This document shows positions 19,972 through 63,801 of a stretch of 64,000 nucleotides of DNA, one piece after another (position 1 is the stretch's first letter; each line of letters begins with the position of its first letter). A program made the translations under genes and the position numbers. Origin of the DNA: Halothece sp. PCC 7418 (GTDB lineage: Bacteria > Cyanobacteriota > Cyanobacteriia > Cyanobacteriales > Rubidibacteraceae); assembly GCF_000317635.1 (NCBI RefSeq), contig NC_019779.1:2976001-3040000 (forward strand), in the 5' to 3' direction. The notes under the pieces are model-generated. The model made no database searches. It had not been told where the DNA came from and saw only the letters and a list, made by a program, of their open reading frames with translations.

Positions 19972-20772
19972 ATGGAACACCACTATATCTCGCTCGGTGC
20001 TGGCTGTGATACGGCTATGATTCTAAATAAACTGGGACTACGAAAAAAGGCTTATCCATTTGATTGGTTATGGAATTTAGATGCTGGACTAACTGCTGTC
20101 AATGACATCATTAAATATAATTTTATGAATGTATCTTCTGAGGATGCCTACTGTCGATCTAGTCATTACAGGCTGCCTCACCCAGTGGTGGTCTATAAAA
20201 ACTTCCCTGAAATTATTCATATGCATTCCAATCCCATGGAAGATCGCCAAGAACATGAAAAGTTATTGCGTAGAATAGAGCGGTTTCAAACACTGATTAA
20301 GTCTAATCATAAATTACATTTTATTTACTATAAAAATTATAATGAAGAGCATCAGAAAGATCATTCAGTTACTGTTCAAGATACATTACTCAAAATGCTG
20401 AATCAAGCGGATAAATTCTTAGATATTATCTCCAATTTCCAAAGAAAAAGCACTAGTCAAGTTACTCTATTATTGATTTTACAAACTAATATCGAGGAAA
20501 AAGAGTGTGCAATTCAATTGTTAAATAAGACAAAAATAGAAGATAAGAGGATTAAAGTCGGATTTACTTTATCACGATCTGACAAAGAACCACAACGTTA
20601 TAGGCAGTGGGAAAAGCAATGGTTTCAAAATATTATTCGTCAAACAGAAATGCCGATACATATCATACTACAGTGCTATTGGATAATGGCTTTAAAGTGG
20701 AAAGAAAGGGTGGTACGAGTAATGAAACAAAAAGTCAAAAAAGTCATCGGTAAATATAGCATTTCTCAGTAA
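19972..20772 (+). CDS. DUF1796 family putative cysteine peptidase
   Basis: 266 residues. The opening HHYISLGAGCDTAMILNKLGLRKKAYPFDWLW, with a conserved Cys (C13) and PFDW, is the DUF1796 (papain-like cysteine peptidase) signature. A His in HSNPMEDRQEHEKL and the FIYYKNY segment are also typical. These genes occur in bacterial glycan clusters and resemble eukaryotic plant-type glycan-locus proteins; true peptidase activity is unproven. It is the first gene of the AT-rich polysaccharide locus, 49 bases before a sulfotransferase. Confidence 0.75.
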   Translation: MEHHYISLGAGCDTAMILNKLGLRKKAYPFDWLWNLDAGLTAVNDIIKYNFMNVSSEDAYCRSSHYRLPHPVVVYKNFPEIIHMHSNPMEDRQEHEKLLRRIERFQTLIKSNHKLHFIYYKNYNEEHQKDHSVTVQDTLLKMLNQADKFLDIISNFQRKSTSQVTLLLILQTNIEEKECAIQLLNKTKIEDKRIKVGFTLSRSDKEPQRYRQWEKQWFQNIIRQTEMPIHIILQCYWIMALKWKERVVRVMKQKVKKVIGKYSISQ

Positions 20773-20820
20773 TTGTTTATTTCTGAACTCTATTCAAAAA
20801 AAGGTTCTTTATAGATAGAT

Positions 20821-21729
20821 ATGCAAACACTAAAATCTTATATCCCAACCATCATTAAAAACAAATTGCATAAGGCTGGATTGACAAAGGGGATCTTGAA
20901 GGACAAGGGTGAAGAATATACTGCAGACCAAAAAGTTATTTTAGAAGCTAAACATTCTTTAGAAAAGCCTCCTTCTGTTTTATTTTTTACCACTCATAAA
21001 TGTGCTTCCAGTTTTATCTCTCCTTTATTTAGAGCAATTACTAGAAATAGTAATTATAACTTAAAAGATTATGCAGGAGCAATTTGGCAATTAGGAGATA
21101 ATATTGATCTGGATCAAGAAAAACCAAACTTCTTGGGCAATTTTTTACAAGATACTGGCGACCGTCTATTTTTTAGAAGGGGTGAAATTTATGCCCCTTT
21201 AAGAGTTCCAGTTGATTTTCCGGAAAGACATCACTTCAAGCATATTTTCTTTTTACGAGATCCGAGAGATGTTTTAGTAAGTGCTTATTATTCGTTCGGC
21301 TTTACTCATGCTTGGCCAAAAAACTCTAAGGCAAGGGAAAGATATCGAATTAAAAGAGAAGCCATACAACAACAAACCATAGATGATTATGTAATCAGTG
21401 AAGCGAAGAATTGGCTAACTCGGTATTCAAAATATCAAGAACTACTTGAAACCTCTGATTCATATGTGTATCTTAAGTATGATGATTTTCAAAGTGATAC
21501 CGTTGGCTTCATTCAAACAATAACAAACTATCTGGATATTTCTCTTCCTTCAGAAGAAATAGAGCAGTTAGCATCCAAGGCTTCTCCTATTCAATCCACT
21601 AAGGATGAAACAAAGCATAAACGTTCAGGAAAGAGTAAGCAGTATTTAGAGGAATTAAAACCAGATACTGTAAGAGCTTTGAATGAAAAATTCTCTGATA
21701 TGTTATGTTATTGGAATTTCAGCTGTTAG
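20821..21729 (+). CDS. Sulfotransferase domain protein
   Basis: 302 residues. The 5'-phosphosulfate loop is THKCASSF (58-65) after a beta strand (SVLFF), and the 3'-phosphate site is FFLRDPRDVLVSAYYS near 145-158. It should transfer sulfate from PAPS to a sugar hydroxyl, matching Sulfotransfer_1-type enzymes. It starts 48 bases after the DUF1796 gene and its first residues (MQTLKSYIP) resemble those of the next, frameshifted sulfotransferase, so the two may be diverged duplicates. Confidence 0.85.
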   Translation: MQTLKSYIPTIIKNKLHKAGLTKGILKDKGEEYTADQKVILEAKHSLEKPPSVLFFTTHKCASSFISPLFRAITRNSNYNLKDYAGAIWQLGDNIDLDQEKPNFLGNFLQDTGDRLFFRRGEIYAPLRVPVDFPERHHFKHIFFLRDPRDVLVSAYYSFGFTHAWPKNSKARERYRIKREAIQQQTIDDYVISEAKNWLTRYSKYQELLETSDSYVYLKYDDFQSDTVGFIQTITNYLDISLPSEEIEQLASKASPIQSTKDETKHKRSGKSKQYLEELKPDTVRALNEKFSDMLCYWNFSC

Positions 21730-21741
21730 GATTTTTAACTA

Positions 21742-22571
21742 ATGCAAATAATTAAATCATATATCCCAAAGATTTTAAAAATAAAATCAAATCTGCTTTT
21801 AAGCATCAAAATAAACCACAACAATTTACGATCTATCCTGATGATACTTTCTTGGTATCATATCCAAAATCAGGAAATACTTGGGTTCGTTATCTAATTG
21901 GCAATTATATTAGTAATAACCAATGTAATTTAACAAATCATAATTTGTTAGTTCCTGATATTCATACCCAGAAAAATTGGGATAAAATTAAACGTCCTAG
22001 ATGTATAAAAAGTCATAAACCTTTTACTAACCAATACAAGAAAGTTATTTATTTAGTCAGAGATGGGAGAAGTGTTGCTGTTTCATACTATTTTCATTGT
22101 TTAAAATTCAACCAAATATCTCAAAATATGAGTTTCCAAGAATATTTGGAGAGATTTAATGATGGTAGTCTTGATAGTTACTCTACATGGAGCAATCATG
22201 TATTCTCTTGGCTCGATAATGCTCCCGAAGATTTTTTGCTAGTACGATATGAAGACTTGAAGGCAGATACATCTCAGGAATTTTCCAGAATCCTCAGTTT
22301 TATGAAATTCCCGCTCCAAGAAGAAAAGCTCAAACAAGCGATTGAAGCATCAAGAATGACAAATATGAAAAAAGTTTGGAATCCAGAAAATTATAGTAAC
22401 TTAGCAGAATATAATCCTCATTTAGCAGAGGCTTTATCAAAATCAAGTAAAGATATTTCTTTTGTTCGTCAAGGAAAAGTTAGTGAATGGAAAAAGTTTT
22501 TTGATTCTGCTACTATGGAGCAATTTAAAAAGCTTCATGGAGAAGCACTCAAAAGACTGAACTATATTTAA
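21742..22571 (+). pseudogene. Sulfotransferase (Sulfotransfer_1), frameshifted near its start
   Basis: ATG at 21742 reads MQIIKSYIPKILK, like its upstream neighbour. One base missing in the A-rich run 21775-21785 throws the frame; adding one A gives NKIKSAFKHQNKPQQFTIYPDDTFLVSYPKSG and joins the long downstream frame. That frame has the classic SYPKSGNTWVR loop for the 5'-phosphosulfate and VIYLVRDGRSVAVSYY for the 3'-phosphate. Either a real early frameshift or a homopolymer sequence error. If the read is right, a start inside the frame (21852) would remove the N-terminus just before the loop. Confidence 0.8.
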
Positions 22572-22583
22572 TACGTAAAGCAG

Positions 22584-23591: not shown

Positions 23592-23627
23592 CAATCAATT
23601 GTATCAAATCATTTAATTTCAAAAAAT

Positions 23628-24470
23628 ATGAAGGATTCTTTACTTAGCTGGGAAGAAGCAGTTACTTGGTTAAAAAATCACCCAGACAAACAACAACTTG
23701 TTAAATTTTGCTATTATGACGATCCGATCGAAGAAGCAGCAGAACGCTTTTACAAAAGCCAAGAATGGGAAGCTCTTCAACAAAAAATTTCTCCGTATTT
23801 ACCCAGTAAAGTTTTAGATTTGGGAGCAGGTCGAGGAATATCTAGCTATGCTTTTGCAAGGATAGGATGTCAAGTTACAGCACTGGAACCTGACCCCAGT
23901 CCAATTGTTGGATATCAAGCAATTGAATCTCTAATTGCGAAAACTGGCTTATCAATTGAACTAGCGACTGAATATGCTGAAACTTTACCTTTTCCAGATA
24001 ATAGCTTTGATATTGTTTATGGTCGGGCTGTTCTCCATCACGCCCAAAACCTCAAAGAATTTTGTCAGGAAGCTGCGAGAGTTCTCAAGCCAGGGGGGAT
24101 ATTTTTTGCAACGCGAGAGCACGTTATATCTAAAAAAGAAGACCTCCAAACATTTCTTGATAATCACCCTCTACATCATCTCTATGGTGGAGAATATGCT
24201 TATTTACTCCAAGAGTATCAAGAGGCAATTAGAGCAGCCAATTTAAAATTAAAAACATCAATTGGCCCATTTGAGAGTGAGATCAACTATTTTCCTAAAA
24301 CTAGAGAACAATTGAAAGATGAAATCGTTTCTATATTAGCTCGTCGTTTTGGAAAAAAACTAGCTATAGTACTCAGTTCTAATTTACAAATTCAAAAATT
24401 AGTTACCCAAAGTTTGTCACGAAAATCTCAAACTCCAGGTCGTCATTATTCTTTTTTAGCATTTAAATGA
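23628..24470 (+). CDS. Class I SAM-dependent methyltransferase
   Basis: 280 residues. Motif I is VLDLGAGRGISSYA near 66, with the acidic end of strand 2 in TALEPDPSP and a Methyltransf_11-like pattern PFPDNSFDIVYGRAVLHHAQNLKEFCQEAARVLKPGG. It probably O-methylates a sugar or modifies a sugar nucleotide. It overlaps the epimerase gene start by four bases (ATGA), so it is in one operon with it. Confidence 0.85.
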   Translation: MKDSLLSWEEAVTWLKNHPDKQQLVKFCYYDDPIEEAAERFYKSQEWEALQQKISPYLPSKVLDLGAGRGISSYAFARIGCQVTALEPDPSPIVGYQAIESLIAKTGLSIELATEYAETLPFPDNSFDIVYGRAVLHHAQNLKEFCQEAARVLKPGGIFFATREHVISKKEDLQTFLDNHPLHHLYGGEYAYLLQEYQEAIRAANLKLKTSIGPFESEINYFPKTREQLKDEIVSILARRFGKKLAIVLSSNLQIQKLVTQSLSRKSQTPGRHYSFLAFK

Positions 24471-28563: not shown

Positions 28564-29169
28564 ATGAAAATTTTTGGTATTGGGATGTTCAAAACTGGGA
28601 CAACTACTCTAGGTCGGGCTCTCAGTAATTTGGGATTTAGTGTGTTTAATGGTCCTTGGATAACAGAGGGTGAAATTTATAACAATGCTTGGAATCCAAA
28701 TCTTCATCACTTTGAAAAGTATAAAAAATCAATTATAGAAAAAGTCGAAGCATACGATGCTTTTGCTGATTATCCTTTCATGTATATTTATCCCCTACTC
28801 GATCAATGGTTTCCTGGCTCCTTATTTATTTATACTGAGCGAAATCCTTATGAAGTTGCTCATAGTGACCGAGCGATGTGGTTAAGAAATGGAGAACCCC
28901 TTTTCAAGATTCCCCCCACCAGAAGATTTGTTGAGCGCTACAATCAACATCGCCAAGAGGTATTAAGCTATTTTGAAGGACGCGAGGATTTTCTTCGGGT
29001 GAACTGGGGGGCAAGTGATGGGTGGGAAAAACTATGTGGCTTTCTTGACTGTCCTGTTCCCAATACTCCATTTCCTCATAGAAATTCCGGAAGCTATCAG
29101 ATCAAGAATAACTTAAAACTAATGGTAAGTGACATCGTAGTCAGTTTAGATCGATGGAAATCCCCTTAA
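28564..29169 (+). CDS. Sulfotransferase family protein (Sulfotransfer_4-like)
   Basis: 201 residues, short as in the Sulfotransfer_4 group. The PAPS loop is at the very N-terminus: KIFGIGMFKTGTTTLGRAL (K10-T-G-T-T). AYDAFADYPFMYIYPLL is the typical middle segment, LFIYTERNPYEVAHSD the 3'-phosphate region, and FLRVNWGASDGWEKLCGFL the closing one. A distant relative with the same layout lies at 45325-46023. It probably sulfates a sugar of the same polymer. Confidence 0.82.
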   Translation: MKIFGIGMFKTGTTTLGRALSNLGFSVFNGPWITEGEIYNNAWNPNLHHFEKYKKSIIEKVEAYDAFADYPFMYIYPLLDQWFPGSLFIYTERNPYEVAHSDRAMWLRNGEPLFKIPPTRRFVERYNQHRQEVLSYFEGREDFLRVNWGASDGWEKLCGFLDCPVPNTPFPHRNSGSYQIKNNLKLMVSDIVVSLDRWKSP

Positions 29170-31136: not shown

Positions 31137-32276
31137 ATGAATAGAAAAGCATTTGCTCATCAATTTCCAAAAATTTCATTTGGAATAATTATTCTAAATG
31201 GAGAACCATTTACTCGTTACTGTATTCGTGCTCTTTATCCTCATGCCCACGAAATTCTTATTGTTGAAGGATCTGTAGAGAAAGCTAGACCTTTTGCCAC
31301 AGCAAACGGACATTCCACAGATTCTACAAGACAAACCATTGATTTCCTTAAAGCTAATGAAGATCCAGAAAATAAAATCAAAGTGATTTCACAGGAAGGA
31401 TTTTGGCCAGATCAGAATGATATGTGTCAAGCCTATGCTGAAGTGGCTACTGGCGATTACTTATGGCAAGTTGATAGTGATGAATTTTACTTATCGGAGG
31501 ATATCGAAAAAATACGAACTTGGTTAGCAAAGAACCCAACAATTGATGGAGCAAGTTTTCGCTGGCGGATCTTTTGGGGAAATGAAAAATACATCACTGA
31601 TGGCTGGTTCTTGAGACAAGGAGGAGGTGATGTTAATCGTCTTTTTCGCTGGGGAAAAGGCTTTCAATATGATAAGCATCATCAAGGTCCAATAGTAATA
31701 AATTCCGAAGGCAGGATTGTTAATGAAGGTAATTGGCTTTCTGCTGATGCTTTAGCTCGGGAGGGGATTTACCTATATCATCTTTCTCTAGTGTTTCCCA
31801 GTCAAGTCCTCAAGAAAACACAGGGTTATGCTACAGGCATGGTTCCTAATGTAGATAACTCAAAAGCCTATGATTGGGCTCAAAAAAATTGGCTTTTATT
31901 AGAAAATCCATTTAGAACACACAATCGGTATCAATTTATTGCTTGGTTGGAGCGTTATGAAGGTTCGCTTCCGCAAGCAGTGATTGATATGTTCAATGAT
32001 ATTCGATCAGGTAAAGTGGCGTGTGAATTGCGAGAGATGGAAGATGCTATTCGGATTGAACGATCGCGCTATTACCGCCTAAAACGATCGTTTCTACGCT
32101 TTGCTGGAGACTTTATACATCGTCACCCCAACAGTAAGTTAGCTTTTTTATTATTGCAAATCTCTGAAAAATGGGTAAATGAAGGCATTGCTGATGTTAT
32201 GAAAAGTAGTATTGGGAAAATAAAAAACCTTGTCTTTAGATCCCAAGCGCAATCATCGCACTCTCAGAATCACTAA
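31137..32276 (+). CDS. Glycosyltransferase, GT2-like
   Basis: 379 residues, GT-A type. FGIIILNGEPFTRYCIRALYPHAHEILIVEGSVEKARPF opens the domain, YLWQVDSDEFYLSEDI is the D-x-D metal site, and a long variable C-terminus ends in a basic tail. It lies after the pyruvyl transferase with a 60-base gap. Some bacterial glycan-locus proteins of this type add a single sugar. Acceptor unknown. Confidence 0.78.
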   Translation: MNRKAFAHQFPKISFGIIILNGEPFTRYCIRALYPHAHEILIVEGSVEKARPFATANGHSTDSTRQTIDFLKANEDPENKIKVISQEGFWPDQNDMCQAYAEVATGDYLWQVDSDEFYLSEDIEKIRTWLAKNPTIDGASFRWRIFWGNEKYITDGWFLRQGGGDVNRLFRWGKGFQYDKHHQGPIVINSEGRIVNEGNWLSADALAREGIYLYHLSLVFPSQVLKKTQGYATGMVPNVDNSKAYDWAQKNWLLLENPFRTHNRYQFIAWLERYEGSLPQAVIDMFNDIRSGKVACELREMEDAIRIERSRYYRLKRSFLRFAGDFIHRHPNSKLAFLLLQISEKWVNEGIADVMKSSIGKIKNLVFRSQAQSSHSQNH

Positions 32277-32937: not shown

Positions 32938-33238
32938 ATGATGACTTCAGCATCCCCTCAAAGCCAATGCCTTACCTTTGAGGAATTTGTTCCATGGAAA
33001 CCAGAGACTCGAAAGTATCCCCGAATATTGGATTGTTGATTATCTCGGTTTAGGGGGGAGAAGATTGATTGGTAACACCAAACCGCCCACAATCTCTATC
33101 TATGAACTAATTGACGGAGAATATCAAGTGCGTCAATTCCGAGACGAAGATCTGATTACTTCCTCAACTTTTCCCGAATTCAACCTGAGTGCTAACCAAA
33201 TTTTCCAAGCAGGGGAAACCCAATGGATTTTTTATTGA
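32938..33238 (+). pseudogene. Uma2 gene with internal deletion and frameshift
   Basis: ATG 32938/32941 reads TSASPQSQ then LTFEEFVPWKPETRKY, the Uma2 N-terminus, for about 27 codons. Then a different frame gives PEYWIVDYLGLGGRRLIGNTKPPTISIYELIDGEYQVRQF ... SSTFPEFNLSANQIF, the C-terminal 70 residues. The central 100 or so residues, including the metal-binding core, are missing, and the two halves are out of frame. Non-functional. Confidence 0.8.
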
Positions 33239-47828: not shown

Positions 47829-47847
47829 AGGATGTTCTGATATCAAT

Positions 47848-50031: not shown

Positions 50032-50124
50032 ATGATAACTGAGTTACTTTACATTTCAGCTTTAGTACCCATGGGCGATCGCGCTGTTGTTTTCCGTCGT
50101 ACTCTCGAAAGTCTTTCCCATTGA
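50032..50124 (+). pseudogene. 5' fragment of a GT2 gene (duplicate of 50668)
   Basis: The 31-codon frame reads TELLYISALVPMGDRAVVFRRTLESLSH and a stop. It matches the first 30 residues of the intact GT2 at 50668 (TELLPISALVPTRDRAVVFRRTLESLSQ) at base level too. The HicBA pair lies between the two copies. Confidence 0.8.
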
Positions 50125-50193
50125 TTCAGATCAAAACAATAATCGTTTAGGCAATTTTAAGACATCAATATAAAACCTGCAAAAGGAGTCAAA

Positions 50194-50406
50194 ATGAATT
50201 CAGTAATTGTTTTTGAAGTCTCTCAAGAAGAAGATGGTGGCTTTGTCGCCGAATGTTTAACTGAGGATATCTTTACTCAGGGCGATAGTTGGAAAGAATT
50301 ACGAGTTAATGTCAATGAAGCGGTTAAAGGATATTATTTTGATCAGCCAAGTTGTCCTAACGTAAAATTACACCTTCTTAAGGAAGAAATGTTAGTGATT
50401 CAATGA
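50194..50406 (+). CDS. hicB: HicB-type antitoxin
   Basis: 70 residues, the short HicB form. SVIVFEVSQEEDGGFVAECLTEDIFTQGDSWKELRVNVNEAVKGYYF is the HicB partial RNase H fold. No C-terminal DNA-binding domain is visible, so repression may be weak. AGGAG lies six bases upstream. It overlaps hicA by four bases (ATGA). Confidence 0.85.
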   Translation: MNSVIVFEVSQEEDGGFVAECLTEDIFTQGDSWKELRVNVNEAVKGYYFDQPSCPNVKLHLLKEEMLVIQ

Positions 50407-50642
50407 AAATTCCTAGAGATCTGAAGGGAAGTGATCTCGCAGATATTCTCTGTCGCCAATGGAATTATAAAGTGGTTCACCAACGGGGAAGTCATATTAT
50501 TTTGGAGACTGACATTCCTAGTCATCAAAGAATAAGCATTCCCAACCATAATCCTTTGCGTTTAGGGACATTGAATAGTATTTTGCGAGCAATTTCTCGA
50601 CATAAAGGAGTAACCAAAGCTGATATTATTAATACCTTGTGA
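50403..50642 (+). CDS. hicA: HicA-type mRNA interferase toxin
   Basis: 79 residues, dsRBD-like fold. IPRDLKGSDLADILCRQWNYKVVHQRGSHIIL holds the catalytic His31 (G-S-H). RISIPNHNPLRLGTLNSILRAISRH is the typical second half. It cleaves mRNA when HicB is lost. The order antitoxin-toxin is the reverse of most hicAB loci but is known. Confidence 0.88.
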   Translation: MKIPRDLKGSDLADILCRQWNYKVVHQRGSHIILETDIPSHQRISIPNHNPLRLGTLNSILRAISRHKGVTKADIINTL

Positions 50643-50667
50643 GCTTACTTAAAGCCCCTTAAAAACT

Positions 50668-51606
50668 ATGACCGAGTTACTTCCCATCTCCGCCCTAGTT
50701 CCCACACGCGATCGCGCTGTTGTTTTCCGTCGTACCCTAGAAAGTCTTTCTCAACAATCAATGCAGCCGTTAGAAATGATTGTGGTGGATGGATCAGATG
50801 GAGAGGAAACGCGATCGCTGTGTGAAGATAAAATTCCCAATTTAGAGACAACTATTTACTATTATCGCGCGACAGAATTGGGTGCAGCCACGCAACGAAA
50901 TCAGGCGATCGCGCACGCAACTCAAGACACGATTTGGCTGTTAGATGATGACATTCTCCTTGAACCCGAATGCTTAGCCAGACTCTGGGAAGCCATACAA
51001 AGCGATCCCCAAATGGGAGGAGTTAACGCCATGATTACCAATCAAAAATATTTACCCCCAGGGCGCATTAGTAGGACATTATTTAGTTTTTTACATGGTA
51101 AATCAGAAGCCAGTTATGCGGGAAAATGTATTGGTCCAGCGTTGAACCTCCTCCCAGAAGATAATCCTAATTTACCTAAAATTGTCCCTGTAGAATGGTT
51201 AAATACTACCTGTGTTCTCTATCGTCGCCAAGCCTTACCCGATCCTTTATTTCCTTCCAATTTTCACGGCTATTCCCTGATGGAAGATGTCACTTTATCC
51301 TTAACCGTGGGTCAATCATGGAAACTCGCGAACGCCCGTACTGCTAGAATTTTTCACGATAGTCAACCTGGGGATCATAAAAATAATGTCGGGGTATTGG
51401 CACAAATGGACTTAGTCAACCGTTATTATGTGATGACAGAGGTATTAGGGAGGAAAAAAGCTCAAGATTACTTTAAATTAGGGGTACTACAACTTTTTGC
51501 GATCGCTGCTTCCTTACAATCTTTTCAAGGCTGGATTGTCTTACCTAGTTTATTATGGGGAAAAGTGAAGGGAACAAAAGAAATTTTCTCAGCAAAATCA
51601 TTTTAA
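50668..51606 (+). CDS. Glycosyltransferase family 2
   Basis: 312 residues. ISALVPTRDRAVVFRRTLESLSQQSMQPLEMIVVDGSDGE gives the nucleotide site and IWLLDDDILLEPECLARLWEA the D-D-D metal site. EWLNTTCVLYRRQALPDPLF and HGYSLMEDVTLSL follow. It starts 25 bases after hicA. A copy of its 5' end lies upstream at 50032. Confidence 0.9.
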   Translation: MTELLPISALVPTRDRAVVFRRTLESLSQQSMQPLEMIVVDGSDGEETRSLCEDKIPNLETTIYYYRATELGAATQRNQAIAHATQDTIWLLDDDILLEPECLARLWEAIQSDPQMGGVNAMITNQKYLPPGRISRTLFSFLHGKSEASYAGKCIGPALNLLPEDNPNLPKIVPVEWLNTTCVLYRRQALPDPLFPSNFHGYSLMEDVTLSLTVGQSWKLANARTARIFHDSQPGDHKNNVGVLAQMDLVNRYYVMTEVLGRKKAQDYFKLGVLQLFAIAASLQSFQGWIVLPSLLWGKVKGTKEIFSAKSF

Positions 51607-54683: not shown

Positions 54684-54688
54684 GTGAA

Positions 54689-55585
54689 ATGGCTAACAGT
54701 TGCCCAATTACAGTGGGAATTCCTACCTACAAACGTCTAGATAAACTTCCCATCGCGCTGGAAAAAATTTTAGCCTGCAATCCGCAACCCAATGAAATTA
54801 TTGTTCATGTTGACAATAACGATACAACAACCGAAAAATGGCTAATCAATCACTTTCCCTCCATTAAAGTTCTTAAAAGCAAAACTCAAGTTGGACCTGG
54901 TGGCGGTAGAAATAAAATTATCAAAGCAGCGACAAATCCGATTGTTGCAAGTTTTGATGATGATTCTTATCCGCTTGATCCCGACTATTTTACTCGCTTA
55001 AGTGAACTGTTTGAACAATTTCCAGAAGCAGCAGTCATTGCAGCCAGTATTTTCCACCAAGGAGAAATGATTGATCCTGATACTTTAACTGCATTTTGGA
55101 CAGCCGATTTTGTTGGCTGTGGCTGTGCTTATCGGCGAGAGGTTTTTTTAGAGACGAGTGGTTATGTTTCTCTTCCTTTAGCTTACGGGATGGAGGAAAC
55201 CGACTTTTCTTTGAGACTCCATGGGATGGGATGGAAAATTTTAACGAGTTCATGGCTACGGGTGTTTCATGACACGCAATTAAAACATCATGAAGATCCC
55301 CGCATTACTGCTGCTAGTATTGCCAATCAAGCCTTGCTAGCATATCTAAGATACCCCCCCAGTTTATGGGGTTTGGGAATTGCACAATGTATAAGCCGTA
55401 TTGGGTGGCTGATCCGACATCAACGCTATCGAGGAATCTTAAAAGGCATTATTTTAATTCCTAGGTTACTATGGAACAATAAAAAACAGCGTCAAAACTT
55501 GAATTCTAACTCCATTTTTTCCTATTTAAAACTTCGGAAAAATAAGATTGCAGTCCAACTAAACGAAACAACTTCTTTAACTTAG
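54689..55585 (+). CDS. Glycosyltransferase family 2
   Basis: 298 residues. PITVGIPTYKRLDKLPIALEKIL and NEIIVHVDNNDTTTEKWL give the nucleotide site, SFDDDSYPLDPDYF the D-D-D metal site, and GCAYRREVFLETSGYVSLPLAYGMEETDFSLRLHGMGW the catalytic region. It starts 5 bases after the previous gene and is followed after 10 bases by a GT4. Confidence 0.9.
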   Translation: MANSCPITVGIPTYKRLDKLPIALEKILACNPQPNEIIVHVDNNDTTTEKWLINHFPSIKVLKSKTQVGPGGGRNKIIKAATNPIVASFDDDSYPLDPDYFTRLSELFEQFPEAAVIAASIFHQGEMIDPDTLTAFWTADFVGCGCAYRREVFLETSGYVSLPLAYGMEETDFSLRLHGMGWKILTSSWLRVFHDTQLKHHEDPRITAASIANQALLAYLRYPPSLWGLGIAQCISRIGWLIRHQRYRGILKGIILIPRLLWNNKKQRQNLNSNSIFSYLKLRKNKIAVQLNETTSLT

Positions 55586-55595
55586 TCAATGAATT

Positions 55596-56813
55596 ATGGT
55601 GACTGAATCTTTCCCATCAAAAGAGCATTCCTCATGGATTTGTTGCCAAATCGGTGCCAGGGAACACTATGCTATTCCTATATCTTTACACCAAGAGGGA
55701 CAATTAATTCATCTCATTACAGATGCTTGGGTTTCTCCTCACTCCGAACTGAATTATTTACCTCGTGTTTCCGCCAACTTACGAGGGCGTTATCATTCTG
55801 AATTAGCAGATGCAAAAGTTTCTGCTTTTAATTATTCTCTGATTGCCTTTGAGTTAAGTCAACGCCTACGGGGAATTTCGGGATGGCAATGTACCATTGC
55901 GCGGAATAACTGGTTTCAGAAAAAAGCAAAAGCCGTACTGAAGAAAATCGCAAATCAGTTATCTGAACCCCCTGTCATTTTTTCTTACAGCTATGCAGCG
56001 TTAGAAATTTTCCGCTTTGCTAAAGAACAGGGTTGGACAACCGTTTTAGGGCAAATTGATCCAGGAATTCGCGAAGAAGAATTGGTCATTGCAGAACATG
56101 AAAGACACCCTGATTTAGCCCCAGAATGGAAACCCGCCCCTCCTCACTATTGGGATAACTGGCGAGAAGAATGTCAACTTGCCGATCACATTGTTGTTAA
56201 TTCTGAATGGTCGCGTCAGTTATTACAAGAAGCAGGAATTGAAACTGAAAAATGTAAGATCATACCCCTAGTTTATACTCCACCAGCAGAAGCCCTAAAT
56301 TTTGTTCGGACTTATCCTGATACTTTTTCTCCCGAACGTCCCCTGAGAGTGTTATTCTTAGGACAAGTCATTCTTAGAAAAGGTATGGCAGCAGTTTTAG
56401 AAGCCATTCAATCCCTCGAAGGATACCCCATCGAATTTTGGATTGTCGGGTCTTGTCAAATTAATATTCCAGAAGACATCCAAAACCATCCTCAAGTGCA
56501 TTGGATTGGTCGTATTCCTCGCAGCAAAACCGCTTATTATTATCAGCAAGCGGATGTGTTTCTCTTTCCGACGCTATCTGATGGATTTGGTTTAACGCAG
56601 TTAGAAGCACAAGCCTGGCAATTACCGATTATTGCTTCTCAAAATTGTGGCAAAGTGGTAACAGATGGAGAAAATGGCTGGATTTTGTCAGAAGTTACTG
56701 GGGGCGCGATCGCTGCTTGTCTAAAACATTTATTATCTTACCCTTTTCACCTTAGACATTATAGTCAAAACAGTTCATTTTTAGTGAGTAAAGAACAAAA
56801 TTGTTCCAAATAA
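55596..56813 (+). CDS. Glycosyltransferase family 4
   Basis: 405 residues, GT-B fold. SYSYAALEIFRFAKEQGWTTVLGQIDPGIREEELV is the acceptor half. LRVLFLGQVILRKGMAAVLEAIQSL and QQADVFLFPTLSDGFGLTQLEAQAWQLPIIAS (E-x7-E-type region) form the donor half. HIP1 is in the 3' part. Sugar unknown. Confidence 0.9.
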   Translation: MVTESFPSKEHSSWICCQIGAREHYAIPISLHQEGQLIHLITDAWVSPHSELNYLPRVSANLRGRYHSELADAKVSAFNYSLIAFELSQRLRGISGWQCTIARNNWFQKKAKAVLKKIANQLSEPPVIFSYSYAALEIFRFAKEQGWTTVLGQIDPGIREEELVIAEHERHPDLAPEWKPAPPHYWDNWREECQLADHIVVNSEWSRQLLQEAGIETEKCKIIPLVYTPPAEALNFVRTYPDTFSPERPLRVLFLGQVILRKGMAAVLEAIQSLEGYPIEFWIVGSCQINIPEDIQNHPQVHWIGRIPRSKTAYYYQQADVFLFPTLSDGFGLTQLEAQAWQLPIIASQNCGKVVTDGENGWILSEVTGGAIAACLKHLLSYPFHLRHYSQNSSFLVSKEQNCSK

Positions 56814-56884
56814 AATTAGTATTGTTGCTGATTGAATATTTCAATTGAGCCCATAAATAATTAGAAAAATATTATATCTTGACT

Positions 56885-57616
56885 ATGACTAATACAACCG
56901 ATGAATCTCAATTAAAAGACTACTATCGTCAAACGGCTAGTAATTATGATCAAATGCAAGTCCATCAAGACGATGAACATCATAATGCATTGAAAATTCT
57001 CCTTGGGTATGCTCTGGACCAAGAATTGACTTCAATATTAGACGTGGGAACTGGAACAGGACGTGCGCTTCTTTACCTTAAGGAATATATTCCCAACTTA
57101 GACTATCGGGGAATTGAACTCATTCCAGAGTTGCGGGATATAGCTCTTGACAAAGGTCTTGATCCTGCACGAATTGATATAGGTGATGGGAGAAAATTAC
57201 CTTATGCAGATAACTCATTTGAAATAGTGACCGCATTTGGCGTTCTTCATCATTCTAATTGCCCGGAGACTGTTGTTCAAGAAATGTTGAGGGTTGCTTC
57301 TCGGGCTATTTATATTTCTGATCATAATATTTATGGTTGGGGGACAACTTTTACTAAAACAGCTAAACAAATTGTCCGTTCTCTTTTTGGTCTGAAGGGA
57401 ACTCGTTTGATTCTAACAAAATTTAAAGGTTACCACCTGACTGATTATGATGGTGTTTTTTATCCTTTCTCTCTATTTGATATATTGCCACAACTTAAAA
57501 AAAGCTCTCAGATAAAAATGATTATAAGCACTAAAGGGTTAGCTAATCACTTGTATAAAGAAGCGTCTCATATTGCTGTTTTAGGAGAAATTGATGAAAG
57601 GAGTAAACAATTATAG
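56885..57616 (+). CDS. Class I SAM-dependent methyltransferase (paralogue of 51721)
   Basis: About 243 residues from ATG 56885. DYYRQTASNYDQMQVHQDDEHHNALKIL opens it as in the copy at 51721. Motif I is ILDVGTGTGRALLYLKEY and PYADNSFEIVTAFGVLHHSNCPETVVQEMLRVASRAIYISDH the later half. The pair suggests a duplicated gene block in the locus. Confidence 0.85.
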   Translation: MTNTTDESQLKDYYRQTASNYDQMQVHQDDEHHNALKILLGYALDQELTSILDVGTGTGRALLYLKEYIPNLDYRGIELIPELRDIALDKGLDPARIDIGDGRKLPYADNSFEIVTAFGVLHHSNCPETVVQEMLRVASRAIYISDHNIYGWGTTFTKTAKQIVRSLFGLKGTRLILTKFKGYHLTDYDGVFYPFSLFDILPQLKKSSQIKMIISTKGLANHLYKEASHIAVLGEIDERSKQL

Positions 57617-57694: not shown

Positions 57695-58625
57695 ATGCTT
57701 AACATGAATTCAAGCCCAGATATTAACCAGACCTTTATTATTTTTTACATATCCAAAAAACGGCTGGTATTACTTTGCAGCGAATGCTCCGCTCTCGTTA
57801 TGGACCTCATTTATTACAGCGAACTAAGAACTTAATCCAAGAGAAATTAAATTCGTCTCCAGATCCAGTATCACTTAAAAAACGTTTATCTTCGATCACG
57901 ATGCAAGATCAGTATTTTATGGGGCATTTTTGTTATGGCATTCACAAGTTTTTACCTTATCCTTATACCTATATTACATTTTTAAGAGAACCTATTAGTC
58001 GTCTCCTCTCTCTTTATAGATATTCTAAGTTGAATAGTTCAGCATATTATCATGGCTTAGCACGTAATGCTTCTCCAAAGGAATTTTTTTTTGAATCTAA
58101 TTTAATGGAATTAGATAATGGAATGTTAAGATTTATTCTTGGTAATCCTCCTGATTATGGCGATCTATTTATTAATCGAACCCCAGTTGGAAAGTGTAAT
58201 GAAGATATGCTAAAACAAGCTAAACAAAACATAGAAAATGAATTTAGCTTTGTTGGTATTGTTGAAAAATTTGACGAATCAGTCCTTTTGCTGAAAAAAC
58301 AGTTAAATTGGAAAAACCCCTATTATTTAAGGCGTAATACTTACAAAAATACAAATCAGAATCAGCCTCTTACATCTAGTAGTTGGGATTTTAGTGACTT
58401 GATGATTGAAAAACTAAAAGAAAAAATAAATATGATATGGCTCTTTATCAATTTGCTTATCATCAATTAGAAAAGCAGTTGGAAAGCTTCGGCGATGAGT
58501 TTTTAAAGGAAATTTATTCTTTCAAGAAAAAGAATTTTGCATATAATAAAGCACTTTTACCAATATATAATAAATATGATACTCTTAAGGCTTTTATCAA
58601 AGGAGAGAATAATCGTCCTATATAA
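57695..58625 (+). pseudogene. Sulfotransferase (Sulfotransfer_2-like), two frameshifts
   Basis: Three frames join into one protein. ATG 57695 or 57704 reads to QTFIIF. Adding one T to the run 57741-57746 continues with LHIQKTAGITLQRMLRSRYGPHLLQRTKN (the PAPS loop, with Gln for the usual Pro). The middle has TYITFLREPISRLLSLYRY. Adding one A near 58420-58430 joins NKYDMALYQFAYHQLEKQL, the typical N-x-x-D-x-x-L-Y end, to the stop at 58623-58625. Either decayed or a sequencing artefact. Confidence 0.78.
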
Positions 58626-58780
58626 ATCTCTAGATTCTAGAATTTACATTAAGTGATAAATTCAGTATTAGTAATACAATATAAAAAACGCAAAAGAAAA
58701 ATACGCTCTCAGCTGATAAAGCTGCCTAGATTGTCATAAAGACCGTTACTAATAATCTGTGAATTTCACAGTAAACAGTG

Positions 58781-59884
58781 ATGAATTTAATTAAAGTTAT
58801 TCTCTACTCTGTTTTACCATCTCCCTATCAACGCGATCTACTTTATGCTCTTTCCCAACATCCGAAAGTAGATCTACAAGTGAATTATCTCGAAGCTGCT
58901 TGTTCAGATTCGCCTTGGCCAGAAAAACCCATCCAAAGCTATGAACGTATTTTACCAGGATTTGATCTATCTTGGGGATTGTCTCGGTTTCACTTTAATT
59001 GGGATTTTCCTAATCTAAAAGAAGTGGATGTTGTTGTGTTTAATGGTTACATGAGTTTGACTGCACAACTGATTTTGAGATGGCAAGCGCAACAAGTTCC
59101 TTGCATGTTTTGGGGAGAAGCCATGGTCGCTTCCTCTAATGGTTTAAAAGGAAAAATTCAACCGTTTTTAGCTCAACCTTTAGAACAGTGTCGAGGGATT
59201 GCTGGTATTGGTTCTCAAGCAGTAGCAGACTATAAGAAACGTTTTCCCAATAAACCAATTTTTAATATCCCTTACTATTGCAACTTATCAGAGTTTCAGA
59301 AGCAAATCCCGCAACGCCCTCGCACGCCACCAACGATTCTGTTTTGTGGTCAAATGATTTCTCGCAAAGGAATTGATCTTCTACTGCAAGCCTTTAATAC
59401 TCTATTACAACAAGGCTTAGAGGCCCGTTTACTGCTCGTGGGACGAGAAGCAGAACTGCCACAGATGCTGCAAAATCTACCAGAAATAACACAGGAAAAA
59501 ATCAAATATGCGGGTTTCCAAGCTCCAGAAAATTTACCTTATTTTTTCCGCCAGGCTGATTTATTTGTGTTACCCAGTCGTTACGATGGTTGGGGAGTTG
59601 TAGTTAACCAAGCCGTGGGTGCAGGATTACCGATCATTTGTTCAGATGCGGTTGGCGCAGCCCGAGATTTAGTTGAACCGAAGCAGAATGGGCTAATTTT
59701 CCCCGCAGGAGATGTGGATGCTTTAACCGAGGCTTTCGCTAATTTCTTACAAAATCCACAAGCGATAGAAAGAGCTAGTATTGCCTCTCAGAAAAAAGCA
59801 GAGAATTGGTCTCCCACGGTAGGAGCGCAAAAGTGGGTGGATGCTTTGGAAGCCGTGATTGATCAGGGAGCACTGAAACAGTGA
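58781..59884 (+). CDS. Glycosyltransferase family 4
   Basis: 367 residues from ATG 58781 (a GTG three bases upstream is also possible). KVILYSVLPSPYQRDLLYALSQHPKVDLQVNYLEA is the acceptor half. TILFCGQMISRKGIDLLLQAF and RQADLFVLPSRYDGWGVVVNQAVGAGLPIICSDAVGAARDLV form the donor half. It overlaps the next gene by four bases (GTGA). The 152-base gap before it shows no feature. Confidence 0.9.
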   Translation: MNLIKVILYSVLPSPYQRDLLYALSQHPKVDLQVNYLEAACSDSPWPEKPIQSYERILPGFDLSWGLSRFHFNWDFPNLKEVDVVVFNGYMSLTAQLILRWQAQQVPCMFWGEAMVASSNGLKGKIQPFLAQPLEQCRGIAGIGSQAVADYKKRFPNKPIFNIPYYCNLSEFQKQIPQRPRTPPTILFCGQMISRKGIDLLLQAFNTLLQQGLEARLLLVGREAELPQMLQNLPEITQEKIKYAGFQAPENLPYFFRQADLFVLPSRYDGWGVVVNQAVGAGLPIICSDAVGAARDLVEPKQNGLIFPAGDVDALTEAFANFLQNPQAIERASIASQKKAENWSPTVGAQKWVDALEAVIDQGALKQ

Positions 59885-61047
59885 GAATTCTTTTTGTAAG
59901 TACCAGTTCTGGTTCTCGGGGGGGAGGTGAACTGTATTTAATTTATTTGGGTCAAGAACTGGCTAAGCGACAGCATAGCGTTGGTTTGTGGTGTTCTGAT
60001 CATCCTCGTATGGATGAACTTGCCAGTAAATTTAAGGAATTTGGGGAAGTGCTGCGATCGCGCTACAGCAACACATATGATCGGAAAATCCGCTCTTTTA
60101 GTCACTTAATTCCGCGAGTCTCTCCTGAAATTAGACAACAGTGGGAAAGTTTTCAACCGCAACTGATTCACCTCAATAAACAAAATTTAGAAGATGGTCT
60201 TGATCTGTTGCAGCTAGCGAACAGCTTACCCTATCCCAGCGTTGCCACCATTCATATTACCCAAACCCAAGGCAGTTTAGGCGCGTTTTTGGGTTGGGGG
60301 CGGGACAAAATCGCCAAGCGTTCCTTAAGGCAATTCCAAGGAGCTTTAGTAGCTATCTCGCAAACTCGGGGAAAAAATTTGTCGGAGTTTATTGAGTCTA
60401 AAACCCCAGTTATAAAAACGATTGAAAATGGAGTTCGGATTCCGACTGAACAAGAAAAGATAACGAAGCGAGAGCAAACCCGTTCGCAATTAGGAGTGAA
60501 AGCGGATCAGTTGCTAGTGGTTGCGATTGGACGCATGGAAGCGCAAAAACGACCCCTTTTATTTTTAGAATGGGCAAACTATCTCAAAGTAATCTTTCCA
60601 GAGGTGCGATTTTTATGGGTGGGAGATGGACGTTCTGCACCCGAATGGGAACAATGGGTTAAAAATAAGCAAGCAGGAGACTATATCCAACGTCTGGGAT
60701 GGCAAACTGATGTCACTCCTTATTTAGCCGCAGCAGATGCCTTCTTTCACCCAGCTGAATTTGAAGGGTTACCCTTTGCCTTATTAGAAGCCATGGCTTG
60801 GTCACTCCCTTGTTTTATTACTCCCTCCTTAGCCAAAGAATTAAGTTTCCCAGAAGGGGTGTGCGCGATCGTTGAGGAACAAGATTATACGACCTTAAAA
60901 TATCTAGCTGACCCAAGGCAACGTTCTACAATCGGAGGAAGAGGTTACGAGTTAGTAGAAGAAACATTTTCTCGATCAAAAATGATCGAACAATACGAAA
61001 CCTTATACCATCATTTCTGCGCTCAATCCAGTTTAAACTATGGCTAA
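59881..61047 (+). CDS. Glycosyltransferase family 4
   Basis: 388 residues from GTG 59881. FVSTSSGSRGGGELYLIYLGQELAKRQHSVGLWCSD has the G-G-G-E-x-x acceptor-side loop. VVAIGRMEAQKRPLLFLEWANYL and AADAFFHPAEFEGLPFALLEAMAWSLPCFIT form the donor half with the E-x7-E motif. It overlaps the polymerase gene by eight bases, so the three genes 58781-62470 form one coupled unit. Confidence 0.92.
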   Translation: MRILFVSTSSGSRGGGELYLIYLGQELAKRQHSVGLWCSDHPRMDELASKFKEFGEVLRSRYSNTYDRKIRSFSHLIPRVSPEIRQQWESFQPQLIHLNKQNLEDGLDLLQLANSLPYPSVATIHITQTQGSLGAFLGWGRDKIAKRSLRQFQGALVAISQTRGKNLSEFIESKTPVIKTIENGVRIPTEQEKITKREQTRSQLGVKADQLLVVAIGRMEAQKRPLLFLEWANYLKVIFPEVRFLWVGDGRSAPEWEQWVKNKQAGDYIQRLGWQTDVTPYLAAADAFFHPAEFEGLPFALLEAMAWSLPCFITPSLAKELSFPEGVCAIVEEQDYTTLKYLADPRQRSTIGGRGYELVEETFSRSKMIEQYETLYHHFCAQSSLNYG

Positions 61048-62470
61048 CTCCTCTCTTGATTATTCTCCATCTCGCATCCAACGAAACAAGGATGTGCCGC
61101 AACCGACATCAGCAGCTAGTGCTAGTTTACTCACGGGTATCTTGCTTGCATTTTTCACAATTAATCCCAATGCCTTTCCCAGTGAAATGGCTCAACAAGC
61201 CTCCATTTTTGTGGGACTAGGCTTTTTTGGAAGCCTCTGCTTTGATAGCACTCGCGGTTGGAGAAATTTATTTCGCACTGATTTAGTTTGTCTTTCAGGG
61301 CTCTATTTTTTTAGTCTCTTTGAATTCTTATTTCCTCAAGAAGGCTTTAATAACTTACTCACCTCTGAGCAAACTGTTGATGCTCTCTATATACTCTTAT
61401 TAGGTTTTGCCGGATTAGTAATTGGTCGGCATTTTACGATTCTCAAGCCCATTCCCAAAAAATGGTTGAACTTTAGCACTATTCCTGATCAATCCCTTTT
61501 CCGTCTTTTCTTAATTTCCAGCTTCTTAGGCTATTTTTATCTATTATCGACAGTTCAGTTTAATGTTATAGAAGCTATGGACGAAATGCTAGGAGCTCGC
61601 TTTAGCCAGCCTTGGTCGCGAGGAGCATATGGTGGATGGAAATCACTGCTTTATGAATTAGCCCTTTTACGCTATGCAATTCCTCCCATTGGGGGGATTT
61701 TGTTGAATCGGCGTCAAAACTTTAAACTATGGCAAATTATTCTTGTGATTCTGATCTTGATTTTCACTTTCTATCAAGGTTTTACTAGTGGCACTCGCAG
61801 TATTTTTGGTGCTTATTTAGCCGGTTTTTTAGGGGGATATCTTCTAACTTTAGAAAAAATCCGACTTTGGAAAATTGTTATTCCCCTTGGAATTGCTGGT
61901 TACGCAATGCTATTTGCAACTCGACATATGCTCCGCTTTAGGAATATTGGACTTAGAAAATATATTGAATGGGGAGTTTATGAAAGCGTTCAAGCTGAAG
62001 AAGGCTTAGCAGTTGATTACAATCTCTGGCCTATTGGTAAAATTGTAGATGCCATGCCGAATACTTATGATTTTCTGGGATGGGAAATGATTCAGGTATT
62101 TGCCACCAAACCAGTTCCCCGAGTATTATGGCCTGGTAAACCAGTAGAGTTAAGCACTTCCATTGAAGACATTGTGGGGGCGACACAAATGACAGTTGCA
62201 ACCACCTATGTTGGTGAGGCTTATATGCTCGGTGGTGTGATTGCTGTCATTGTTGTCTCCTTAATTATTGGAGCAACCAGTAACTGGTGGACTCGGATTA
62301 CAACCCAACAATCATCTGGGTATGCCGTAGCAGTAGGAGCGCTGGGATTTTTTGTGGCTGCGATGACCATGCGCAGTCTGGCTTTTTTTACTACCATGAT
62401 TCTCCCGATTATCGCCTTAATCTTTTTTGCTCAAATTGTTCCTTCTTTGATTGGAGCGAACAAAAGATAG
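61040..62470 (+). CDS. O-antigen/oligosaccharide repeat-unit polymerase-like membrane protein (Wzy-type)
   Basis: 476 residues with about eleven hydrophobic spans, such as SLLTGILLAFFTINP, QIILVILILIFTFYQGF and GALGFFVAAMTMRSLAFFTTMILPIIALIFFAQIV. A large outside loop (residues about 290-370, TRHMLRFRNIGLRKYIEWGVYESV) contains conserved Arg/Glu, as in O-antigen polymerases of the oligosaccharide repeat-unit polymerase type. It would polymerise lipid-linked repeats on the periplasmic side. It is the only polymerase candidate in the window. Confidence 0.78.
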   Translation: MANSSLDYSPSRIQRNKDVPQPTSAASASLLTGILLAFFTINPNAFPSEMAQQASIFVGLGFFGSLCFDSTRGWRNLFRTDLVCLSGLYFFSLFEFLFPQEGFNNLLTSEQTVDALYILLLGFAGLVIGRHFTILKPIPKKWLNFSTIPDQSLFRLFLISSFLGYFYLLSTVQFNVIEAMDEMLGARFSQPWSRGAYGGWKSLLYELALLRYAIPPIGGILLNRRQNFKLWQIILVILILIFTFYQGFTSGTRSIFGAYLAGFLGGYLLTLEKIRLWKIVIPLGIAGYAMLFATRHMLRFRNIGLRKYIEWGVYESVQAEEGLAVDYNLWPIGKIVDAMPNTYDFLGWEMIQVFATKPVPRVLWPGKPVELSTSIEDIVGATQMTVATTYVGEAYMLGGVIAVIVVSLIIGATSNWWTRITTQQSSGYAVAVGALGFFVAAMTMRSLAFFTTMILPIIALIFFAQIVPSLIGANKR

Positions 62471-62622
62471 AGTTCAAACCTTCTTAATTAATGGTGGTGA
62501 TGGGGAAAGTAGGAGACTAGGTGAACAGAATTAACAAAACGACGAATAATGAGGTGACCAGCCATCTATTCCCTATTGTCTTGCGTGTAGCACTATAGTA
62601 CGTAGCCCTATTAATCATATAT

Positions 62623-63801
62623 ATGCGAGTTTTACATGTCATCCCATCTCTGAGTCCTAAGCATGGTGGTCCCACAGAAGTTGCTCTCAACTTAGTTCGA
62701 TCGCTGCAAGATTTAAATATTGATGCCGAGATCCTAACCACCAATGATGATGAACAAGACTTGCTCGATGTCCCACTTCAGCGCCGGGTTGACTATCAAG
62801 GCGTTCCCGTTTGGTTTTTTCCTCGTCTGGCTCGGATGAAAGCGTTTATTCCCTCTCTATCTCTAACCCAGTGGCTAGCACGGCATATTACGGAGTACGA
62901 TCTCCTTGACCATCACTATCTCTTTTGCTACGTTCCCACCGTTTCCGCATGGCTAGCGCGTTGGCACAATGTTCCTTACACCGTCCGTACGATGGGACAA
63001 CTCACTCCTTGGGCTCTAGCACAAGGTCGCCTCAAAAAACAAGTTTATAGCACTCTCTTTGAAAAACAAAATTTAAACCAAGCAGCAGCGGTTCACTGTA
63101 CATCGGCTGGGGAAGCGGAAGATGTTAGCAATTTTGGAGTGCACGCTCCCAAGGTGGTTTTACCTTTAGGCGTTGCGTTACCTCAACCCATTCCGAATGC
63201 TCGTCAGCAGTTACGCCACCGCTACGGGATAGATCCAGAAACGCCCATTGTCTTATTTCTCTCGCGACTACACTATAAAAAACGACCAGAGTTATTAATT
63301 GATTCCGTTGCTGAGTTAGTTGAACAAGGTCAATCGGTTCATTTACTTTTAGCCGGTTCAGGGGAAACCGACTATATTCAAGGGTTACAAGCGCAAGTGA
63401 CCCGTTTAGGGCTTGACCCATACGTAACCTTTACTGGATTTATGACTGGATACGATAAAGATTTAGTGCTACAAGGGTCAGATATTTTTGCTTTACCTTC
63501 CTATTCCGAAAACTTTGGCATTGCGGTTGCGGAAGCCATGGCTGTCCCCTTACCCGTCATTATTACGCCAGGGGTGCAAATTGCCCCAGAAATTGAGAAG
63601 GCAAAAGCAGGGGTTATTATTGAAGGAGAGCAAGAACGTCTCACCCAAGCCCTAGCTGAACTGTTACAACACCCTCAATATCGAAAGGATTTAGGAGAGA
63701 ATGCGCGTCAGTTAGTGCAAGAGCGTTATTCTTGGAGCGCGATCGCGCAACAATTGGCTCAAACTTATCAAGAGATTATCGTCCAACACCGAAAACGCTA
63801 A
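62623..63801 (+). CDS. Glycosyltransferase family 4
   Basis: 392 residues. VIPSLSPKHGGPTEVALNLVRSLQDLNIDAEILTTND is the acceptor half (G-G-P-T-E). LFLSRLHYKKRPELLIDSVAEL and SDIFALPSYSENFGIAVAEAMAVPLPVIITPGVQ form the donor half. A 152-base gene-free gap before it has no clear element. The C-terminal part contains HIP1. Confidence 0.92.
   Translation: MRVLHVIPSLSPKHGGPTEVALNLVRSLQDLNIDAEILTTNDDEQDLLDVPLQRRVDYQGVPVWFFPRLARMKAFIPSLSLTQWLARHITEYDLLDHHYLFCYVPTVSAWLARWHNVPYTVRTMGQLTPWALAQGRLKKQVYSTLFEKQNLNQAAAVHCTSAGEAEDVSNFGVHAPKVVLPLGVALPQPIPNARQQLRHRYGIDPETPIVLFLSRLHYKKRPELLIDSVAELVEQGQSVHLLLAGSGETDYIQGLQAQVTRLGLDPYVTFTGFMTGYDKDLVLQGSDIFALPSYSENFGIAVAEAMAVPLPVIITPGVQIAPEIEKAKAGVIIEGEQERLTQALAELLQHPQYRKDLGENARQLVQERYSWSAIAQQLAQTYQEIIVQHRKR

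Follow-up and report, generated by a model that had tools for sequence, protein, structure and literature searches.

What does a cyanobacterium make from a locus in which eight sulfotransferase genes or their remnants lie amid many sugar-transfer genes? The question is raised by an island of 44 kb (positions 19972-63801) in a 64,000-nucleotide stretch of the genome of Halothece sp. PCC 7418, a halotolerant unicellular cyanobacterium; this stretch is referred to as the window and spans 2,976,001-3,040,000 of a single contig of 4,179,170 bases. The original prediction had described the island as a very large sulfated-polysaccharide locus. That is still the best reading, as several sulfotransferase families are found amid glycosyltransferases, and the size of this multi-family locus is real. 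Clusters of this kind have been described from cyanobacteria before, and the island is a large one that is partly broken. Taken as a whole, it is probably a lineage-specific, partly decayed mosaic for a sulfated extracellular or cell-surface polysaccharide, with export parts located elsewhere. The Pfam scan of the island covered 44 main frames between 19972 and 63801 and, later, seven small pieces, leaving out three minus-strand open reading frames (ORFs) of at least 100 amino acids in the stretch; all scanned island frames share the plus strand. Ten frames upstream and ten downstream were scanned as flanks; several of the scanned frames have no Pfam match.

The eight genes named as sulfotransferases are all sulfotransferase-derived, as judged from Pfam, PDB, and phmmer evidence. 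Searched against the sulfotransferase families, six of the eight exceed a Pfam cut-off, and the best of these matches are to Sulfotransfer_1, Sulfotransfer_4, Stf0, and Gal-3-O-sulfotransferase, in agreement with the predicted presence of several families. The genes are arranged as follows.

20821-21729, plus strand: sulfotransferase 1, intact; Sulfotransfer_1, 43.9 bits; motifs TTHKCASSF and LRDPRDVLVSA
21742-22571, plus strand: sulfotransferase 2, start frame-disrupted; Sulfotransfer_1, 129.2 bits (frame 21756)
28564-29169, plus strand: sulfotransferase 3, intact; Sulfotransfer_4, 101.9 bits
29268-30119, plus strand: sulfotransferase 4, intact; Stf0, 81.5 bits
38741-39024, plus strand: sulfotransferase 5, remnant; a 69-residue piece with GAQKAGTTSL and a 31-residue piece, neither with a Pfam match
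45325-46023, plus strand: sulfotransferase 6, intact; Sulfotransfer_4, 112.8 bits (frame taken from 45286)
47055-47828, plus strand: sulfotransferase 7, intact; below every Pfam cut-off (Sulfotransfer_3, 20.3 bits, cut-off 27)
57695-58625 (body 57727-58467), plus strand: sulfotransferase 8, disrupted near both ends; Gal-3-O-sulfotransferase, 40.7 bits, and Sulfotransfer_2, 31.1 bits

The families overlap, since 21756, 28564, and 29268 also pass Sulfotransfer_3. NCBIfam models, applied among the sulfotransferases to 20821 and 47055 alone, gave no name for either. All seven longer proteins match solved sulfotransferases, five as single sequences and two (45325 and 47055) via alignments. Specifically, the PDB relatives of 21756, and weakly those of 20821, are SULT enzymes; 28564 matches bacterial and oxamniquine-resistance sulfotransferases, and so does the profile of the 45325 domain aligned with three relatives; 29268 matches the Stf0 structure 1tex (1.5e-6), and 57727 matches heparan sulfate 2-O-sulfotransferase (4.6e-5). 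Two motif regions, the 5'-phosphosulfate-binding (5'-PSB) and 3'-phosphate-binding (3'-PB) ones, which we take to bind 3'-phosphoadenosine-5'-phosphosulfate (PAPS), are legible by eye in seven of the eight, while the remnant 38741 retains the first only. The proteins are very probably PAPS sulfotransferases acting in glycan synthesis. Single-sequence structure predictions were uninformative, with mean predicted local distance difference test scores of 33 (47055) and 39 (57727). The island sulfotransferases are highly divergent from each other, the best-scoring pair having 26% identity. Their origin by recent tandem duplication was ruled out by this low identity, and DNA self-comparison revealed no pair. 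A plasmid search with 21756 gave 85 records, none above 60% identity and the best at 28%.

Sulfotransferase 7 (47055) had been singled out for an unusual loop. Of the 242 other genomes searched in the order, 31 hold full-length relatives (32 of 243 including its own), and we aligned 22 of 29 extracted relatives with 47055 to obtain 23 sequences. The loop residues H35, R37, S40, and L42 are invariant columns across these sequences, and one relative (L094) has a close variant of the loop, SHMRSRSSLL. At five nearly invariant positions of the loop stretch (41, 45, 50, 51, and 57), 47055 does deviate. The loop is thus unusual in these departures but not a new type, and 47055 reads as a divergent member of its sulfotransferase family. 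The alignment profile matches the CurM sulfotransferase (4.8e-6) and tyrosylprotein sulfotransferase in PDB.

We then inspected the reading frames. Six sulfotransferases had been called intact or repairable. This holds for 20821, 28564, 29268, and 45325, which are intact, whereas 21742 and 57695 are frame-disrupted; with 47055, the island has five intact sulfotransferase frames, two disrupted ones, and one remnant. The ATG frame of 21742 differs from that of its body (21756-22568), whose first listed in-frame start is a TTG at 21852, shortly before the first motif. Likewise, the ATG frame of 57695 differs from that of its body (57727-58467), and its C-terminal piece (58410-58622) lies in a further frame and is sulfotransferase-like by eye, having no Pfam match. 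The deleted copy at 38741 was correctly recognized as such: 38741-38947 encodes 69 residues in which the first motif GAQKAGTTSL is retained, and phmmer relates them to a sulfotransferase of the same genome at 3537294 (L006, 7.9e-7) and to a frame of another genome (L027, 1.1e-8). The 31-residue piece in another frame (38932-39024) resembles a later part of the sulfotransferase fold, by eye only. A glycosyltransferase gene of family GT8 (47964; region 47795-48794) shows the same kind of change, as its ATG-bearing upstream frame differs from the main frame, and a run of seven A lies at 47962. Because runs of seven or more A or T are abundant in the island (30 in 43.8 kb), their coincidence with frame changes is weak evidence of slippage. 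Decay, phase variation, and assembly error would all fit the frame changes and are indistinguishable here. A bolder reading, which we regard as highly improbable, is a multi-enzyme programme for sulfating a single bacterial polysaccharide: at least five sulfotransferases of different families would each act on its own sugar and position, and frame changes in A/T runs would turn some of them on and off, giving cells with different sulfation patterns.

Around the sulfotransferases, the original prediction had placed about twenty glycosyltransferases, a pyruvyl transferase, an acyltransferase, and several methyltransferases. Fifteen of the 44 scanned frames exceed a Pfam cut-off for glycosyltransferases, all but one of them with an open frame that begins at a standard start. 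Two more match below cut-off (35641 and 46103), and three resemble glycosyltransferases by judgement with no Pfam match (27652, 36503, and 53898). The pyruvyl transferase (30237) and the acyltransferase (52443, hexapeptide type) were confirmed. Methyltransferases were found over cut-off at 23628, 51721, 53119 (barely, 27.9 bits for a cut-off of 27), and 56879, and a weak match below cut-off at 44407. The remaining features of the island and its left flank are as follows.

14808-16295, minus strand: outer-membrane polysaccharide export protein (OPX), left of the island; Poly_export, 77.1 bits, with SLBB
16457-17506, plus strand: ABC half-transporter, apparently N-terminally truncated, 349 amino acids; ABC_tran at residues 122-271
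19972-20772, plus strand: DUF1796 (papain-like) protein, first gene of the AT-rich island; Pfam 48.7 bits
22584-23591, plus strand: DUF4915/TIGR03032-like protein; DUF4915, 86.3 bits; TIGR03032, 73.4 bits, below its cut-off of 251.5
23628-24470, plus strand: S-adenosylmethionine-dependent methyltransferase; Methyltransf_11, 77.6 bits
24467-25402, plus strand: NDP-sugar epimerase/dehydratase; Epimerase, 166.3 bits
25399-26580, plus strand: glycosyltransferase group 1; 53.5 bits
26596-27507, plus strand: glycosyltransferase family 2; 96.1 bits
30237-31076, plus strand: polysaccharide pyruvyl transferase; 38.6 bits, cut-off 25.3
31137-32276, plus strand: glycosyltransferase family 2, weak; 26.6 bits, cut-off 23.3
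33270-34511, plus strand: glycosyltransferase group 1/4; 88.2 bits
37627-38697, plus strand: exostosin-type glycosyltransferase (GT47); 41.4 bits, cut-off 33.4
40100-42108, plus strand: mobile or accessory insert with a partial DDE transposase, two family-less ORFs, and a Uma2 protein (Pfam)
42261-44361, plus strand: two glycosyltransferases, group 1/4 and family 2 (Pfam)
47964-48794, plus strand: GT8 glycosyltransferase, probable start ATG upstream in another frame; 98.4 bits
48791-49984, plus strand: GT61 glycosyltransferase; 79.3 bits
50668-51606, plus strand: glycosyltransferase family 2; 74.1 bits
51721-53895, plus strand: methyltransferase, hexapeptide acyltransferase, methyltransferase (Pfam)
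54689-57616, plus strand: two glycosyltransferases and a methyltransferase (Pfam)
58778-61047, plus strand: two group 1/4 glycosyltransferases (Pfam)
61040-62470, plus strand: Wzy-like repeat-unit polymerase; TIGR04370, 31.7 bits, E 7.7e-8, below its cut-off of 40
62623-63801, plus strand: glycosyltransferase group 1/4; 119.3 bits

The DUF1796 and DUF4915/TIGR03032-like genes are interleaved with sulfotransferases 1 and 2. The OPX gene adjoins the island in divergent orientation. Beside it, the ABC protein 16457 shares 34% identity over 343 amino acids with L063:12325-11300 in a second cluster of the same genome, where the full relative (L063:11291-13123) has 611 amino acids, of which Pfam names the ATPase domain only. 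Export through the neighboring ATPase 16457 was ruled out, as it is apparently a truncated half-transporter (349 vs. 611 amino acids). No other ABC protein was named in the island and hence no complete ABC exporter, the ABC2 permease not having been searched genome-wide. A genome-wide search located the sole Wzz match at 2,075,085, 0.9 Mb from the island. Downstream of the island, Pfam named a DUF218 protein, another hexapeptide protein, a permease, and a C39-type ABC and HlyD secretion pair.

How does the island compare with known systems? According to the accessible part of Maeda et al. (2021, PMC8205485), sulfotransferase genes are numerous in cyanobacteria, and most of them belong to partial clusters for polysaccharides, of either the Wzx/Wzy or the ABC type; the xss cluster, which makes synechan and lies on plasmid pSYSM of Synechocystis sp. 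PCC 6803, is described there with two sulfotransferases and eight glycosyltransferases. The island, having five intact and three broken sulfotransferases and at least 15 glycosyltransferases, exceeds it in both, and the expectation that xss holds fewer sulfotransferases was correct (PMC8205485, L012). Both loci have sulfotransferases amid glycosyltransferases, xss with a Wzy-type polymerase and the island with a Wzy-like candidate for one, and in both OPX lies outside the cluster proper (PMC8205485, L012). As far as that text describes it, xss has its own Wzx, polysaccharide co-polymerase, priming transferase, and XssQRS regulators (PMC8205485), whereas none of these was recognized in the scanned island frames; XssQ/R/S were not named among the scanned frames, no search having been aimed at them. 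Orthology to xss was not borne out and was ruled out, as merely two frames of the Synechocystis locus (L012) match the island (blastp, 1e-6), both to one glycosyltransferase, and xssA and xssE join the island sulfotransferases at profile level only. Numerous sulfotransferase-bearing polysaccharide clusters have been predicted (PMC13125312, in its accessible part), and sulfated polymers are also described from other bacteria in the accessible parts of PMC11641403 and PMC7356697. The sulfated capsule cluster of Vibrio sp. KMM 8419 resembles the island in having sulfotransferases inside a surface-polysaccharide locus, and, in the portion of the report seen, differs in being ABC-exported and in having PAPS-synthesis genes and three sulfotransferase genes (PMC11641403).

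Combined, the family searches and one protein search put the sulfotransferase genes of the genome at 16, a figure that includes 47055 and 3255157, which score below cut-off, and leaves out the remnant 38741 as well as 2059564, which is below cut-off and matches NKWYS. Seven of about 16 lie within 38 kb (binomial 5e-11, about 6e-9 when scaled by window number), which means that their clustering exceeds chance. An unusually high number of sulfotransferases per genome was ruled out: Sulfotransfer_3 has nine matches here vs. 28, 26, and 20 in the richest of 60 genomes, gene pieces being tallied separately. The local density is not exceptional either. Among 12 comparison loci (L066-L077), which were picked by eye for density among the matches listed and are hence no unbiased sample, and whose sulfotransferases were counted with profiles built from the same data, two are denser than the island. 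Specifically, L066 from the same genus has five to six sulfotransferase frames in 10.8 kb, one frame being merely 66 amino acids, and L070 from the same order has five in 17.4 kb including one Sulfotransfer_4; these two loci thus hold five to six frames within 11-17 kb. Their genomes have fewer families as far as tested, with no Stf0 match in either, no Sulfotransfer_4 in G005, and no Sulfotransfer_2 in G049 by family searches. The island ranks top among the loci compared in sulfotransferase total and family number, among the matches listed and within the limits that contig ends set to the comparison. In the same genome, the second cluster (L063:2847-15053 and L064:7342-9492) has Sulfotransfer_1 genes at 2,056,428 and 2,060,190, about 14-18 kb from the sole Wzz match, and also holds glycosyltransferases, a pyruvyl transferase, an acyltransferase, the 611-residue ABC protein, an NKWYS protein, and a pectate-lyase-like protein. 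On a Bradyrhizobium plasmid (L065:7691-11583), two adjacent sulfotransferase genes are found directly behind an ABC permease and ATPase, among glycosyltransferases.

Where did the island come from? Its GC content is 37.3% in 19972-61039, vs. 43.0% in the left flank and 44.0% in the right flank. The Wzy-like protein 61040 occurs in one of nine genomes of the taxonomic family, its own, and was not found in the eight others; OPX, which is conserved in the genus, was matched in all nine, with 67-72% identity in three congeners and lower identity elsewhere in the family. Sulfotransfer_4 and Stf0 are present in 20 and 8 of the 60 genomes of the comparison set (own included), and neither has a match in the eight other family genomes. 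A conserved genus locus was ruled out by these absences of Wzy, Sulfotransfer_4, and Stf0. By blastp, none of the genes just beyond OPX in the three congeners (up to 16 kb each) matches the region studied here; at greater distance in G005, weak matches (25-33%) link three frames to acyl- and glycosyltransferases of the island. As G005 and G007 also carry sulfotransferase genes, 14-19 kb from their OPX relative, the neighborhood of OPX may be a habitual site for sulfotransferase clusters. Within the island, there is a Uma2 remnant below cut-off (32945-33235) besides the insert at 40100-42108, and a HicA toxin gene (50382-50639) is preceded by a small ORF (50161-50403) that is HicB-like by eye, with no Pfam match. 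The HicA module (region 50035-50753) lies between the family 2 glycosyltransferase gene that follows it and an incomplete duplicate of that gene's start (86 bp, 82.6% identity), and thus appears to have inserted with a duplication. The lower GC content, the absence of Wzy from the eight other family genomes, the divergent sulfotransferases, the transposase, Uma2, and HicA genes, and the duplicated gene start together argue that the island looks assembled piece by piece.

If the island serves a sulfated polysaccharide as we favor, cytosolic glycosyltransferases would build a lipid-linked repeat unit, which PAPS-dependent sulfotransferases, methyltransferases, the pyruvyl transferase, and the acyltransferase would decorate. 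The Wzy-like 61040 would polymerize the repeat unit, the OPX beside the island would let the polymer out, and a flippase and a Wzc-type co-polymerase would be supplied from elsewhere in the genome, where the sole Wzz match lies at 2.075 Mb. The observations themselves cover the domains and motifs, the order and frame state of the genes, and the lack of Wzy in the eight other family genomes; we infer that the acceptor is the polymer of the island itself, that more than one position is sulfated, and that the export parts are used in trans. Several observations weigh against this account. Three of the eight sulfotransferases and one GT8 gene are frame-disrupted or remnants, the ABC gene 16457 looks truncated, and the Wzy-like call falls under the curated TIGR04370 cut-off (31.7 vs. 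40 bits). In the 44 island and 20 flank frames, the scans identified no flippase, co-polymerase, or priming sugar transferase and no gene for PAPS synthesis, and Polysacc_synt (PF01943) finds no flippase genome-wide, other flippase families not having been searched. Given that the best-scoring pair shares 26% identity, the sulfotransferases may serve different acceptors. Salt-acclimated cells of Halothece sp. PCC7418 repress several classes of genes, sulfotransferase among them, according to the accessible part of that report (PMC9374696), which argues against a simple role in salt protection. The predicted heavy and diverse sulfation is not shown, with two genes frame-disrupted, one a remnant, no sulfation position legible from the sequence, and no flippase, co-polymerase, or priming transferase recognized in the scanned frames.

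Alternatively, the locus may make more than one glycan, such as an O-antigen or cell-bound sheath glycan besides a released polymer, with the sulfotransferases not acting on one repeat unit. Fifteen to 20 glycosyltransferases is a large number for a single repeat unit, given the eight of xss in the accessible text (PMC8205485); the mosaic make-up of the island, including the inserts at 40100-42108 and around 50160-50640, is consistent with this alternative, and so are the two sulfotransferases beside an ABC transporter in the apparent surface-glycan cluster of the Bradyrhizobium plasmid. However, a single Wzy-like gene was recognized and the scanned island frames all run in one direction, and we consider more than one glycan a serious possibility, though not the probable one. 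The frame disruptions at 21742, 47964, and 57695, the remnant 38741, and the apparently truncated ABC gene 16457 raise instead the prospect of a decaying, mostly silent island whose remaining frames no longer yield a complete polymer; the transposase and Uma2 debris, the incomplete export set seen locally, and the lack of Wzy, Sulfotransfer_4, and Stf0 matches in all eight other family genomes point the same way. Long silence would erode open frames, whereas five sulfotransferase frames and 14 of 15 glycosyltransferase frames are open from a standard start, which makes such silence unlikely.

It is similarly doubtful that lipids or small molecules, and not polysaccharide, are the acceptors of some of the sulfotransferases. 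Stf0 is a glycolipid (trehalose) sulfotransferase in mycobacteria, and 29268 matches the Stf0 structure 1tex; enzymes that owe their names to drug resistance, polyketide synthesis, or tyrosine sulfation of proteins are among the structurally solved relatives of the 47055 family and of Sulfotransfer_4. All island sulfotransferases, on the other hand, are embedded among glycosyltransferases, and the scans named no lipid or polyketide gene.

Sulfated polysaccharides from cyanobacteria, which bind both water and metals, attract practical interest. To our knowledge, few cyanobacterial polysaccharide sulfotransferases have known acceptors. With five intact enzymes of several families in a compact set, the island would be a useful source for assigning sulfation positions, and it suggests mosaic growth and decay in situ for loci of this kind. 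In Euhalothece, enzymes for extracellular polysaccharides (EPS) are up-regulated, and no sulfotransferase is named in the accessible part of the report (PMC6971039). Sulfated EPS is reported for Aphanothece halophytica, a name related to Halothece sp. PCC 7418 (PMC9227104, in its accessible part). Literature searches on Halothece, Aphanothece, and cyanobacterial sulfated polysaccharide returned no title on this locus, most of the texts being unread. Two DUF29 genes with repeated flanks are located at 18105-19857, and 47-58 bp of this repeat turn up again within the island, at 34531-34588.

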